A DNA stretch of 60,384 nucleotides from an uncultured Erysipelotrichaceae bacterium (GTDB lineage Bacteria > Bacillota_I > Bacilli_A > Erysipelotrichales > Erysipelotrichaceae): NCBI GenBank assembly GCA_945877405.1, contig CAMCSA010000009.1, forward strand, positions 1 to 60,384, written 5' to 3'. How positions within the stretch are numbered: position 1 is the first letter of the stretch; the number at the start of each line of letters is the position of its first letter. Under the pieces are notes generated by a model. It was given only the letters and a program-made list of their open reading frames with translations. It ran no database searches and was not told the DNA's origin. A program made the position numbers and the translations under genes. Below are positions 3,735 to 34,255 of this stretch, one piece after another.

Positions 3735-4640
3735 TCAGTCTTCCTTTTCAAAATATCGGTTCAGCACACCAGTCATCCAGATTTCACAGGCTGCAGCATA
3801 ATCTTTCTGATCCTGTGTATACATCTGTTCTCTGCCCTTCTGATAATATTTGTTCTGTTCATATTCCGGATTATTGACTTCAATAAATCCGGTCGTAGCT
3901 GCAGAATAGTTTCTGACATCCGCCTGTACCCCTGCTCGATTCATATGAGAGACAAGCTGATCCACCATCTGATTCTCCTGCTGATTCTCACATGTGACAA
4001 AGGTAACTGGTGTACGGTAGATTCCCTGATCCACTAACTGAATCGATGAATCATCAATAAGCGGATAGAAGGAAATCATACCTTTCAGGTCCATTCCTTT
4101 TGTATGCAGAATTGCTGCAGCACCCATCATCAGATAAGCTCCCCCAGAAAAACCGACGAATGCGCTTCTGGATGGATCAATATGATAGAACGTACTTCTG
4201 GATGAGAAATACTCTACCGCATCAATGATTTCATCCTGCTGATAGGGAGGTTTCTGAACATCCAGTTTCGTGTAATTAATGGCTATGATCATACAGTTCC
4301 ATGACTGTGCCATTCTGTGACAGAATGTATCACATTGATCCGCATCACCATCAAACAGATTTCCTCCATGGATCACATAGACAACTGGGGTTGGCTGTTC
4401 ACTGCTGATTTCATACAGATTGACTGCCACTGCATCTTTACCTTCTCTTGGCACAGAAAATCTTCTGCCCAGAAGATCTTCATCTGCCTTCTGATTGATG
4501 GCTCTTATCTTTGCATATCTGCTGTTTCCTTTTTTCTTTGTCAGCAGATCCGGGTTTCTCTGATTCAACAGAGAAAAAAACATCGATACAATCAGAACAC
4601 CAATGATGACATTCATCAAAAAACTCAGATCCATACTCAC
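3735..4640 (-). CDS. membrane-anchored alpha/beta hydrolase (esterase-like)
   Basis: A 301-residue protein with an N-terminal helix at about residues 5-23 and an extracytoplasmic alpha/beta-hydrolase domain. YVIHGGNLFDGD carries the HGG oxyanion motif and VGFSGGAYLMMG carries the GxSGG nucleophile elbow, the arrangement of the hormone-sensitive lipase/carboxylesterase group. A catalytic Asp and His would be expected in the last third but I cannot assign them safely. It lies between two VanY-type peptidase genes with 2-3 bp gaps, so it is in one transcript with them and may act on an ester in the cell envelope (inference). Confidence 0.75.
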   Translation of the reverse strand: MSMDLSFLMNVIIGVLIVSMFFSLLNQRNPDLLTKKKGNSRYAKIRAINQKADEDLLGRRFSVPREGKDAVAVNLYEISSEQPTPVVYVIHGGNLFDGDADQCDTFCHRMAQSWNCMIIAINYTKLDVQKPPYQQDEIIDAVEYFSSRSTFYHIDPSRSAFVGFSGGAYLMMGAAAILHTKGMDLKGMISFYPLIDDSSIQLVDQGIYRTPVTFVTCENQQENQMVDQLVSHMNRAGVQADVRNYSAATTGFIEVNNPEYEQNKYYQKGREQMYTQDQKDYAAACEIWMTGVLNRYFEKED

Positions 4641-4643
4641 CTC

Positions 4644-5582
4644 TTAATATGCGTAATCGCCACCTTCAATACCAAAATATTCTTCAAGTGTACAGTCAGG
4701 TGAAACATTGTAGATTGCGGTAGCATATTCCACACCTACATAACGGTAGTGCCATGGTTCAAAGGAATAACCTGTAATCCATTCCTTTCCCTTAGGGTAA
4801 CGCAGAATAAAACCATATTCATGAGCGTGCGCATACAGCCACTGACCTTCCACCGTATTTTCCATTGCCTGTGTGAATACGGTTGCCTGATCATGGTCAC
4901 CAATATCTGCCGCAAGACCTGTCTGATGATCCGAATATCCAGGGCGGGCAGAAATCGTATCTGCAGTTGCTGTTCCATACATGGCAACATAGTTATTATA
5001 TAACGAAGCCTGATAAGATGCCGAACGATAACTGGAGCATGTCACAAGTGTAATACCTTCCTGAGCTGCTGCAACAAACATTGTTTCCAATGCCGATGCG
5101 GCACAGTCACGCAGATAATGCGTTCTGTTGCCTGTAGCGTTGACCACTCTCAGATCAGTTGGTTCAAAATAATAATCCAATGCATACTTTTTATTTGCAA
5201 CAACAAGAAGACTGTATGGATCCGAAAACTCAGCCGACAGTGCAGGTGGTGTATAAATCGGTACTTCCTGTACCGGTTCCTCGTAGACAGGATCTTCCAC
5301 TACAGGTGCCTGTTCAACCACAGGTTCTTCCTCGTTTACTGGTTCTTCTTCATTCTGCACTTCTTCAACCTGTTGTTCGTCCTCTTCCTGTACAGGTTCA
5401 TCTTTGGTCTCTTCTTTGATTTCTTCCTTCTTTTCTTCTTTTTCCTGCGTTACAGGTTCTTTTACGGCTGTTTGCTTAGCAGTAAGCTGATAATGTACCA
5501 GTAAGCCGATCACAAGCGAAAGAACAACTACACCCATCATCAGATACACTGTAGTCATCTTTCTCTTTTTTCTTTTTTTCAT
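4644..5582 (-). CDS. VanY-type D-alanyl-D-alanine carboxypeptidase with long Glu/Pro/Val linker
   Basis: A 312-residue M15B peptidase. After a basic start and one helix (about 11-31) comes a low-complexity linker at about 38-112 built from repeated EEPV/EEKKEE units. It should hold the catalytic domain away from the membrane in the wall. Catalytic motif SDHQTGLAAD is at 217-226 (His219, Asp226) and FEPWHYRY at 274-281 (His278). The start is shared with the mtnN stop: 4-bp overlap, translationally coupled. Same role as the neighbouring paralogue, but the much longer acidic linker suggests a different reach or partner (inference). Confidence 0.9.
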   Translation of the reverse strand: MKKRKKRKMTTVYLMMGVVVLSLVIGLLVHYQLTAKQTAVKEPVTQEKEEKKEEIKEETKDEPVQEEDEQQVEEVQNEEEPVNEEEPVVEQAPVVEDPVYEEPVQEVPIYTPPALSAEFSDPYSLLVVANKKYALDYYFEPTDLRVVNATGNRTHYLRDCAASALETMFVAAAQEGITLVTCSSYRSASYQASLYNNYVAMYGTATADTISARPGYSDHQTGLAADIGDHDQATVFTQAMENTVEGQWLYAHAHEYGFILRYPKGKEWITGYSFEPWHYRYVGVEYATAIYNVSPDCTLEEYFGIEGGDYAY

Positions 5583-27000: not shown

Positions 27001-27105
27001 GTCAATTACCCCGACTCTAAAGAGTCGGAGCTTGTAACTCACTCATATGGTCCTGACGTCATTACAAGGTAATGCTCCCATATTAGACGATTCACGTCTC
27101 CCTCG
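27001..27105 (+). mobile_element. relic of an IscB/IS200-605-type element (left-end and partial right-end motifs)
   Basis: The stretch opens with GTCAATTACCC, nearly identical to the left end of the intact IscB element at 32292 (GTCAATAACCC), and is likewise followed by a small hairpin (CCGACTC / GAGTCGG). A second pairing CTTGTAA (27031-27037) / TTACAAG (27062-27068) follows. From 27088 the motif CGATTC...CTCCC resembles the intact element's right end (CGATTCCTCCC at 33874). No nuclease gene lies between the two ends, and the sequence runs directly into a truncated peptidase gene. I read it as an internally deleted, dead copy. Confidence 0.55.
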
Positions 27106-27838
27106 GTACACTATGCCTATATTGATGCAGGTGGAAAGGCACCAAATGTTGTTCAGAGTGAAGCAATTCTGAAATATTTTGTCAGAAGTGCTACAAACCC
27201 AAAATGCATGGATCTTTATCACAGAGTCATTGACTGTGCCAAAGGTGCTGCTTTAATGACTGGTACAACAGTAGATATCATTTTTGATGAAGATCTGAGC
27301 AATCTTGTACCAAACTTCACATTGGAAGATGTACTGGCAGATTCCTTCAGAAAACTGTACCATTCATGTTTTACGCAGAAACAGCTCGACTATGCTCAGG
27401 CATTCAAAGATACCTTTGATACAAAACAGTCCATCAGCTGCATCCCTTCCCCTGTCAAAGACAGACAGAGCGTCATTGACAGTATCAGAAAACATCCGAT
27501 CAATGATTTCTTCGTGGAAACATTCCATAGCGATGTATGTGAAATGGGATCTACTGACGTAGGTGATGTATCATAGGTCGTTCCGACTGCCCAGATCAAT
27601 GCACAGCTATGGTGCAGTTGCTCACAGCTGGCAATGGGTCGCCCAAGAAAAAAGTGAAACAGCCATGCAGGCTGCCCTTCTTGCGGGTTATATTCTGTGT
27701 GATGCAGCTAAGACAATTTATCACAACCATCAGATCATAGAAACAGCAAAGGAAGAACTGAAACAGAGACTGCAGGGACATACTTATCAGTGTCTGATCC
27801 CTTCTGATATCATGCTACACATTTCAAAAGCGAAATAA
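27106..27838 (+). pseudogene. M20 peptidase pseudogene (AbgB, aminobenzoyl-glutamate utilisation type)
   Basis: Reading frame 27106 gives VHYAYIDAGGKAPNVV and continues through a typical AbgB C-terminal half to EMGSTDVGDVS. It is then broken by TAG at 27574-27576, where relatives have Trp (SW then VPTAQ). The frame continues as VPTAQINA and shifts by one near 27605 to a frame encoding AHSWQWVAQEKS and the normal C-terminus. The N-terminal half, with most metal ligands, is missing. So: 5' truncated at the element relic, one nonsense change and one frameshift. The intact protein would be a cytosolic amidohydrolase acting on folate breakdown products or similar N-acyl amino acids. Confidence 0.85.
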
Positions 27839-32029: not shown

Positions 32030-32058
32030 TTGACTTATTTGACGTAAGAATATATTAT
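32030..32058 (+). promoter_or_regulatory. rpmH promoter
   Basis: TTGACT (32030-32035) and TATTAT (32053-32058) are separated by 17 bases, 52 bases before the rpmH ATG. Confidence 0.75.
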
Positions 32059-32109: not shown

Positions 32110-32244
32110 ATGAAGAGAACATACCAGCCAAGCAAGAAAAAGAACAAAGCTACTCATGGCTTCAGAGCCCGCATGGCTACTGTTGGCGGACGTAAGGTCC
32201 TGGCAAGAAGACGTGCCAAGGGCAGAAAGGTCTTATCTGCTTAA
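32110..32244 (+). CDS. rpmH: 50S ribosomal protein L34
   Basis: A 44-residue protein beginning [20 protein letters not shown] and ending in the basic GRKVLSA tail; unmistakable L34 at normal length. GGAGG lies 10 bases before the ATG. In most bacteria rnpA follows at once; here a terminator and a 1.6-kb IscB element intervene. Confidence 0.99.
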
Positions 32245-32270: not shown

Positions 32271-32282
32271 CTCAGATTATCT

Positions 32283-32286
32283 GGAG
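32283..32286 (+). promoter_or_regulatory. probable displaced Shine-Dalgarno of rnpA
   Basis: GGAG in CTGGAGATTAT lies immediately left of the IscB element's left end. Rejoining this flank (…GGAGATTAT) to the right flank (ATGAAAAAG…) would place GGAG five bases before the rnpA ATG, an ideal spacing. The present rnpA ATG has no such site. Confidence 0.55.
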
Positions 32287-32291
32287 ATTAT

Positions 32292-32605
32292 GTCAATAAC
32301 CCGCGATTGAAATCGCAGGCTTGAAAAAGCCTTTGTTGACTAGCCTTAGTATTCTTGTATTACCGTATACGCTAAGAATACTACGTTATCTTTGTCATCA
32401 CACCACCGGACGTAACACCAAATCCTGTGCTCTGTGGTTTGTCATTAAACAGTTCTGAGAGGTAGGAACAGTGTGACATACATAACAAGCAAAGATAACA
32501 TTGGCGATGGTGTCTAAACAGGTTAACGGTACCCTGTTTAACTACGGCTGTCAGATGCCGGACAGAGTATTTTGTTCTCTGTCATGATCTGACATTCAGA
32601 AAGGA
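32292..32605 (+). ncRNA. omega RNA / HEARO-type RNA of IscB
   Basis: This 320-base non-coding stretch directly before iscB folds into many nested perfect stems: GTCAA 32292-32296 / TTGAC 32336-32340 enclosing GCGATT/AATCGC and GGCTT/AAGCC; TAGTATTCTT 32347-32356 / AAGAATACTA 32374-32383; GTTATCTTTG 32385-32394 / CAAAGATAAC 32490-32499 enclosing TCACAC 32398-32403 / GTGTGA 32471-32476; TAAACAGG 32515-32522 / CCTGTTTA 32533-32540; TGTCAGAT 32549-32556 / ATCTGACA 32587-32594 enclosing GACAGAG / CTCTGTC. The position upstream of an IscB gene and this complexity match the HEARO class, which guides IscB. The guide would come from bases just left of 32292. Confidence 0.88.
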
Positions 32606-32611
32606 CGGCAT

Positions 32612-33892
32612 ATGTACGTATACGTTATCAATAAGCACGGTAAGCCACTTATGCCGTGCAAACCAAGAAAGGCCAGAGTGCTTCTACAGAGTGGAAAGGC
32701 TACTGTAGTAAAAAAGATGCCTTTCACAATCCAGCTTCTTTATGGAAGCTCTGGATACAGACAGCCTGTTTCTCTTGGAATGGATGCAGGAAGCAAACAT
32801 ATCGGGATTGCTGCAACCACAGAGAAGAAGGTTCTTTACGCAGAAGAACTTCAGCCAAGAAACGATGTCGTAAGCCTTCTGTCCAGCAGAAGACAGAACA
32901 GAAGGACAAGAAGAAATCGAAAAACAAGATACAGAAAAGCAAGGTTTGACAACAGAGTACATTCCAAGCCAAAAGGATGGGTAGCACCATCTGTACAGGT
33001 TAAGATTCAGGAACATATTTCCGCAGTATTGAGAATACAGAGGATTCTTCCGGTTTCAGAAATACATGTGGAAACAGCAGAGTTCGACACACAACGCCTG
33101 AAAGCAATGATGGATGGCAAACCATTACCAGTCGGTACAGATTACCAGAAAGGCGAGATGTATGACGAATACAACGTCAGACAGTATGTACTTCACAGAG
33201 ACAACTATACATGTCAGTGCTGTAAAAAGCACAAAGAAGGAACAAAGCTTCACGTACATCACATCGAATCCCGCAGAACAGGTGGCAACGCACCTGGAAA
33301 TCTGATTACTCTTTGCCCTGAATGCCACGAGTCAATTCATGCGGGTACAAAGAAATTGCCAAAGGACAAATCAAAACGCAGACCATCTATAAGGGACGCA
33401 GCATTCATGGGGATCATGCGGAAGACGTTCGTGTCTCAGCTACGGGCATTGACAGATGTACCAGTCACAGAAACCTATGGTTACATCACAAAGTTTCACA
33501 GAGAACGGATGAACATCCCAAAGTCTCATATCAACGACGCAGTCATGATCAGTAAAAACTTCAACGCAGAGCCGGATGATGTTTACTACTGTTCAAAGGC
33601 AATAAGACATCACAACAGACAGATCCACAAGAGCAAAATCCTGAAAGACGGTATACGGAAGCGTAATCAGGCACCACATACAGTCAAAGGATTCAGACTG
33701 TTCGATACCGTCGGATACAATAACGATACCTATTTCGTATTTGGAAGAAGAATAAGTGGATGTATGGATATACGAAACTTAGATGGTACGAAAGTCAACA
33801 AAGGCTCTGTATCCTCAAAAAAGCTGAAACACATCCAGTGTAATACTGGAATACTGATAGAAAGGAGAATGGGCGATTCCTCCCGCAGATAA
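32612..33892 (+). CDS. iscB: IscB RNA-guided HNH/RuvC endonuclease
   Basis: A 426-residue, apparently intact IscB, the family from which Cas9 descends. PLMP domain at the N-terminus with the name-giving motif at 12-15; RuvC-I with Asp58 in LGMDAGSKHIGIA; arginine-rich bridge helix at about 92-112 (RRQNRRTRRNRK); RuvC-II with Glu154 in IHVETAEFD; HNH domain at about 195-245 with zinc Cys201/Cys204 and Cys235/Cys238 and catalytic LHVHHIES (His216/His217) plus Asn230; RuvC-III with His306 and Asp309 in SHINDAVMI; C-terminal TAM-interacting region after about 345. All expected catalytic residues are present. AAAGGA lies 9 bases before the ATG. Its stop is 30 bases before rnpA. Confidence 0.95.
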   Translation: MYVYVINKHGKPLMPCKPRKARVLLQSGKATVVKKMPFTIQLLYGSSGYRQPVSLGMDAGSKHIGIAATTEKKVLYAEELQPRNDVVSLLSSRRQNRRTRRNRKTRYRKARFDNRVHSKPKGWVAPSVQVKIQEHISAVLRIQRILPVSEIHVETAEFDTQRLKAMMDGKPLPVGTDYQKGEMYDEYNVRQYVLHRDNYTCQCCKKHKEGTKLHVHHIESRRTGGNAPGNLITLCPECHESIHAGTKKLPKDKSKRRPSIRDAAFMGIMRKTFVSQLRALTDVPVTETYGYITKFHRERMNIPKSHINDAVMISKNFNAEPDDVYYCSKAIRHHNRQIHKSKILKDGIRKRNQAPHTVKGFRLFDTVGYNNDTYFVFGRRISGCMDIRNLDGTKVNKGSVSSKKLKHIQCNTGILIERRMGDSSRR

Positions 33893-33914
33893 ATCTGCAG
33901 GTTTCCTCGCCTAA
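33873..33914 (+). repeat. right-end structure of IscB element
   Basis: GGCGA and TCGCC pair around an inner hairpin CCCGCAGAT / ATCTGCAGG, overlapping the last codons of iscB. Such subterminal structures are typical of IS200/IS605-type right ends. Confidence 0.7.
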
Positions 33915-33922
33915 ATTTTTCA

Positions 33923-34255
33923 ATGAAAAAGAAAAACCGTGTCAGAAAAAGTGAAGAATTTCAGAAGATCATACATAAAGGAAAGAAACATGTATGTCAT
34001 CAGTATGTTCTTTACATGATGCCTAAAACGGAACAGGAAAGCAGAATCGGCATTTCTCTTTCCAAAAAAATAGGAAATGCTGTAGAAAGAAACTTAATCA
34101 AACGTCAGGTACGTATGATGTGTCAGGATTTATTTGACTTTGAGACCTGCAAATATGACTTTGTCATCATCATCCGCTTCGGTTATCGCAATAACAGCTA
34201 TGATACCAACAAAAATAGCTTGGAAAAACTATGCAGAAAAGCTACAATATTGTAG
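33923..34255 (+). CDS. rnpA: ribonuclease P protein component
   Basis: A 110-residue basic protein that assists the RNase P RNA in tRNA 5' maturation. MKKKNRVRKSEEFQKIIHKGKK, RIGISLSKKIGNAVERNLIKRQVR (the RNR-box) and the C-terminal KYDFVIIIRFG give a sure match at normal length. The ATG is preceded by CTAAATTTTTCA with no Shine-Dalgarno, because the element lies upstream. Translation may be coupled to iscB or inefficient. Downstream yidC follows within 20 bp. Confidence 0.97.
   Translation: MKKKNRVRKSEEFQKIIHKGKKHVCHQYVLYMMPKTEQESRIGISLSKKIGNAVERNLIKRQVRMMCQDLFDFETCKYDFVIIIRFGYRNNSYDTNKNSLEKLCRKATIL

Follow-up and report, generated by a model that had tools for sequence, protein, structure and literature searches.

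OgeuIscB, an RNA-guided nuclease, recognizes targets next to a target-adjacent motif (TAM) of the form NNRR, and the guides of IscB systems are 16-17 nucleotides (nt) long and located at the 5' end of the RNA (PMC9640706). A different kind of RNA element is known from genes 25 and 38 of phage T4, where a hairpin shortens the spacing between the Shine-Dalgarno (SD) sequence and the AUG, in gene 25 from 27 to 11 nt (PMC3014915). IStrons, in turn, are mobile elements that splice out of RNA (PMC4227781). Here we describe an IscB element from an uncultured Erysipelotrichaceae bacterium, found on a 60,384-nt stretch of DNA (GenBank assembly GCA_945877405.1, contig CAMCSA010000009.1, positions 1 to 60,384 of the forward strand; hereafter the window). 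It is inserted between the ribosome site and the start codon of rnpA, and its right end is, in our judgement, probably a portable, hairpin-bridged ribosome site that restores translation of the host gene.

A sequence-only reading of the window had placed an intact IscB element between rpmH and rnpA, at a position where it parts the SD sequence of rnpA from its ATG; both points are borne out by the following features of the locus.

32110-32244, plus strand: rpmH (ribosomal protein L34), the upstream host gene; full-length match to PF00468 / TIGR01030
32246-32271, plus strand: intrinsic terminator of rpmH, AAACCACC-AGTC-GGTGGTTTTTTTT; seen in the sequence and also in the empty junctions of congeners
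32276-32291, plus strand: predicted 16-nt guide of the omega RNA, identical with the left flank; from the HEARO start at 32292 and the published guide length of IscB
32283-32286, plus strand: original SD sequence of rnpA, GGAG, now separated from its ATG; 5 nt from the ATG once the flanks are joined
32292-33922, plus strand: whole IscB element; from the HEARO start, the comparison of copies and the junctions of congeners
32292-32519, plus strand: HEARO / omega RNA scaffold; RF02033 (Rfam), 151.7 bits, full model
32612-33892, plus strand: iscB, 426 amino acids, PLMP + RuvC + HNH; NF040563, PF14239, PF01844 and IscB matches in the PDB
33860-33867, plus strand: SD-like motif of the right end, GAAAGGAG; an SD motif recurs at the same place across elements
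33870-33913, plus strand: right-end hairpin; covariance model R1, 62.3 bits; fold z -3.4; covariation over 56 distinct rows
33923-34255, plus strand: rnpA, complete, with its native ATGA start at the element boundary; PF00825, residues 1-107 on profile positions 1-108; TIGR00188

The element shares with described IscB/HEARO (ISC) elements a HEARO RNA at the left end, here directly 5' of iscB, a PLMP-RuvC-HNH IscB protein, a guide predicted from the left flank, and an ATGA that fits NNRR. Its IscB reaches 353 bits with NF040563, where the cut-off is 175, keeps PLMP, the split RuvC and HNH, and carries D58/E154/H217/H306/D309 at the positions equivalent to the catalytic residues D61/E193/H247/H340/D343 of OgeuIscB; judged by its sequence, the nuclease looks intact. 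The earlier suggestion that the right flank suits an IscB TAM also stands, as ATGA and ATGG both fit NNRR, a motif that is OgeuIscB's and may not be that of the IscB studied here. The two host genes match their families end to end, and the rnpA gene at 33923-34255 is the sole rnpA match found in the genome.

The left boundary at 32292 was set from the start of the HEARO model and from the other copies in the genome, which share this G but differ in the sequence 5' of it; for the right boundary (33922|33923), set by the comparison of copies, the uncertainty is 1-2 nt. Once joined, the flanks read ...TCTGGAGATTAT|ATGAAAAAG, in which GGAG-ATTAT (32283-32291, directly 5' of the element) leads into the ATG. 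From the 30 rnpA loci that were fetched, the own locus and one without rpmH were set aside, which left 28 congeners. In all 28 the rpmH-rnpA junction is empty, measures 32-100 nt, and carries a terminator and an ATGAARAA-like start; the joined flanks resemble this junction and contain no repeat, and, judged against these relatives, there is no target-site duplication. In these congeners rnpA begins soon after the terminator and a clear SD sequence is often absent (a match of 4 nt or more in 11 of 28). An assembly error that joined the element to rnpA is most improbable: the genome is a draft of 86 contigs, with several of the sibling copies at the ends of contigs, but the rnpA copy is inside a 60-kb contig, its flanks rebuild a junction like that of the relatives, and its identity to the siblings is only 76% (24% diverged), too low for a collapsed repeat, so that a misjoin is unlikely.

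The sequence-only reading had also proposed that the nuclease targets the start of an essential, conserved gene and would have a conserved landing site in related strains; in this view, the element would be a guided invader that has adapted to its site at rnpA. With a 5' guide of 16-17 nt and the HEARO start as found, a guide at 32276-32291 is plausible, the ATGAARAA of the right flank is conserved in the congeners, and the apparently intact nuclease would fit homing as well. However, in the 28 congeners just 3-9 of the 16 positions directly before rnpA agree with the guide; of the two sides of the site, only the start-codon side is conserved. Because the guide half varies in this way, the comparison does not support a landing site shared by different species, and a genus-wide one is rejected at the species level. 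The guide followed by ATGA, with up to three mismatches, is absent at the rnpA start of every congener with a located rnpA. Such matches occur elsewhere in 24 of 70 genomes, above a reversed-pattern control, and probably reflect shared SD-ATG content. None of the 28 congeners has an insertion at this junction, and the other copies of the element sit at unrelated genes; we consider homing to rnpA quite improbable.

Placement at start codons is a habit of these elements that extends beyond rnpA. The genome holds several further copies, and all five IscB-type right ends that score 62-67 bits in it face open reading frames (ORFs): besides rnpA, these encode a GH2 glycosidase, a GNAT acetyltransferase and a DUF4097 protein, and the fifth runs for at least 497 codons. 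The weaker matches of the right-end hairpin that were examined in this genome, all but C25, C59, C66 and C11:58558, belong to IS200/IS605-type ends. The finished genome G243 has nine IscB right ends, four of which face ORFs 78-419 codons long. We surveyed 80 loci from other genomes, taking the HEARO starts from Rfam and reading the right ends by a fixed rule, since automatic pattern finding misplaced many of them, with a subsequent check by covariance model R1. Among the 45 elements with both ends placed, 18 combine an SD sequence in the left flank, a right-flank ATG that opens an ORF of at least 60 amino acids and an in-frame stop shortly before it; this combination occurs at 74 of 1908 control ATGA sites (p=1.5e-13), ORF calls being no proof that each right-flank ATG is the native start. 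When one gene caller was applied to both sets, 16 of 43 insertions fell on start codons, as did 67 of the 2047 control ATGA sites (p about 1e-12); both this caller and the SD scoring are simple tools with assumptions in common. Downstream genes in other genomes include those for HisA, LGT, M42, a response regulator and cytidylate kinase. The proteins encoded downstream of elements match their families over essentially their full length, and in relatives the orthologues of the M42 and GNAT genes, which are not interrupted, begin at the same codon.

Such a distribution might also arise by passive survivorship, in which the transposase needs ATGA-like sites, selection purges coding insertions, and the survivors gather before starts while the right end itself is unadapted. 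ATGA and ATGG starts would meet the NNRR motif unaided, and non-genic sites are strongly preferred to genic ones (p about 6e-9), as this explanation would have it. Among non-genic sites, however, starts are 8-fold over-represented relative to intergenic ATGA (16:8 insertions versus 67:264 control ATGA sites, p=3.4e-6; the starts were chosen by a crude gene caller that uses the SD sequence), and the SD motif follows those ends that abut ATG. We regard survivorship alone as a rather unlikely account of the pattern.

The right ends share a common order: an SD-like GAAAGGAG(G), a two-helix hairpin, 7-12 nt, and the ATGA of the host. Covariance model R1, which omits the ATG, was built on ten in-phase rows, since in the MAFFT alignment the outer stem of several rows was displaced by one position; it located the right end in most elements. 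Over 56 distinct rows, 96.8% of the cells of the hairpin are paired and 91 cells have changed on both sides, values reached in 0 of 500 shuffles and far above those of slid structures, counts that lean towards the hairpin because the alignment was fitted to that structure. In 29 of 52 elements, the 15 nt directly 5' of the hairpin hold an SD match of 6 nt or more, versus 8 of 1248 control windows. Of 42 intact iscB frames, 41 end no more than 83 nt ahead of the host ATG, five of them on the target's own ATGA; in the rnpA copy the stop codon falls within the hairpin. Two elements, L105 and L109, have apparently lost the right-end hairpin and keep GGAGG 15-16 nt 5' of the ATG.

In the rnpA copy, the predicted fold (z -3.4) would cut the spacing between GGAG and ATG from 55 to about 11 nt. 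Like the split ribosome sites of T4, the modelled structure would thus join SD sequence and AUG through an intervening hairpin; the difference is that here it is the end of a mobile element, would form anew at each landing site, and has a predicted function. Judged by sequence, the subterminal imperfect hairpin appears homologous to the ends of resident IS200/IS605 elements, a family mobilised by Y1 transposases (TnpA), and such transposases are encoded in the genome. In contrast to IS200/IS605 elements, the one studied here is without tnpA, and its ATGA-type right end bears GAAAGGAG(G). The TnpA-only elements L218 and L227 have the same end of SD motif, hairpin and ATGA. They, and probably also L224 and L228, are candidate autonomous partners of the IscB elements.

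Several observations weigh against a portable ribosome site. With 19 of the 43 insertions called genic, start-codon landing is frequent but no rule; some copies (L135, L138) have no SD sequence; the SD-like motif can pair with the CCTCC of the hairpin loop and, in one fold of the rnpA copy, with the linker. AAAGGA, a weaker motif, precedes the homologous hairpin at the IS200 ends of the same genome, so that the SD-like motif may in part be ancestral, or may act for TnpA. Together with the position of the motif beside a hairpin related to IS200/IS605 ends, this AAAGGA variant at the resident right ends speaks for GAAAGGAG as a DNA-level signal for the transposase or the end structure, with host expression kept by unrelated promoter or coupling effects. 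On the other side, an SD match of at least 5 nt is found in 17 of 19 end types that abut ATG and in only 2 of 14 homologous hairpin end types not abutting ATGA (p=2e-5), the remaining 12 of the latter having no 5-mer of the motif; these types were assigned manually, and the non-ATGA ends are for the most part TnpA-side rather than right ends, which again counts against a ribosome site. Pairing with the CCTCC loop was considered as the reason for the motif and rejected, since motif and loop vary independently in the RD49 copies; the same independence argues against a DNA-level signal, which we hold to be unlikely as the main explanation. Survivorship and a DNA-level role could, however, both act in part.

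We suggest the following course of events for the portable ribosome site. The element would land between the SD sequence and the ATGA start codon of a host gene, oriented with it, and a host promoter would transcribe the flank (the guide), the omega RNA, iscB and the host gene as a single unit. Since the flank would give the guide, transcription would have to start outside the element; a scan of the element boundary for strong promoters gave no more sites than chance. At the rnpA locus, transcription likely starts at the promoter-like site at 32030-32058, ahead of rpmH, and reads through the terminator. While the host's SD sequence is cut off, the right end would substitute GAAAGGAG(G), which the folded hairpin would bring to about 9-12 nt from the host ATG, and reinitiation after iscB, ending 0-83 nt before that ATG, may help. 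Insertion even before an essential gene might be tolerable because the right end supplies a replacement SD sequence. The RNA-guided nuclease, finally, would cut the empty allele and thereby favour retention of the element.

In a literature search that did not cover the founding HEARO and ISC papers, where an earlier mention is possible, no report was found that connects IscB with start codons or ribosome sites, and neither start-codon placement nor an SD-hairpin right end is described for IscB/HEARO elements in the papers covered. We see about an even chance that an IscB lineage, probably with the TnpA-only L218 and L227 as partners, evolved a portable ribosome-binding right end matched to ATGA targets. 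If this is true, an element that lands on a gene start gains a host promoter for its guide RNA while the host gene is spared, which would explain how a guide that lies outside the element is transcribed, why ATGA-like flanks suit the element, and how it survives before essential genes such as rnpA and that for cytidylate kinase. It would be a new kind of truce between mobile element and host: like IStrons, the element would have a built-in means to reduce damage to the host gene, but it would restore translation rather than splice, as a translational counterpart of self-splicing.

Two further HEARO loci were noted. At 27001-27234 of the window, a HEARO-like left-end remnant (22.5 bits, sub-threshold) precedes an apparently broken peptidase gene. 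On a Butyrivibrio contig (L107), three tandem HEARO RNAs (1655-1866, 2075-2283, 2558-2769) precede one iscB and a fourth lies downstream (4504-4738), a series that is possibly a multi-guide array.
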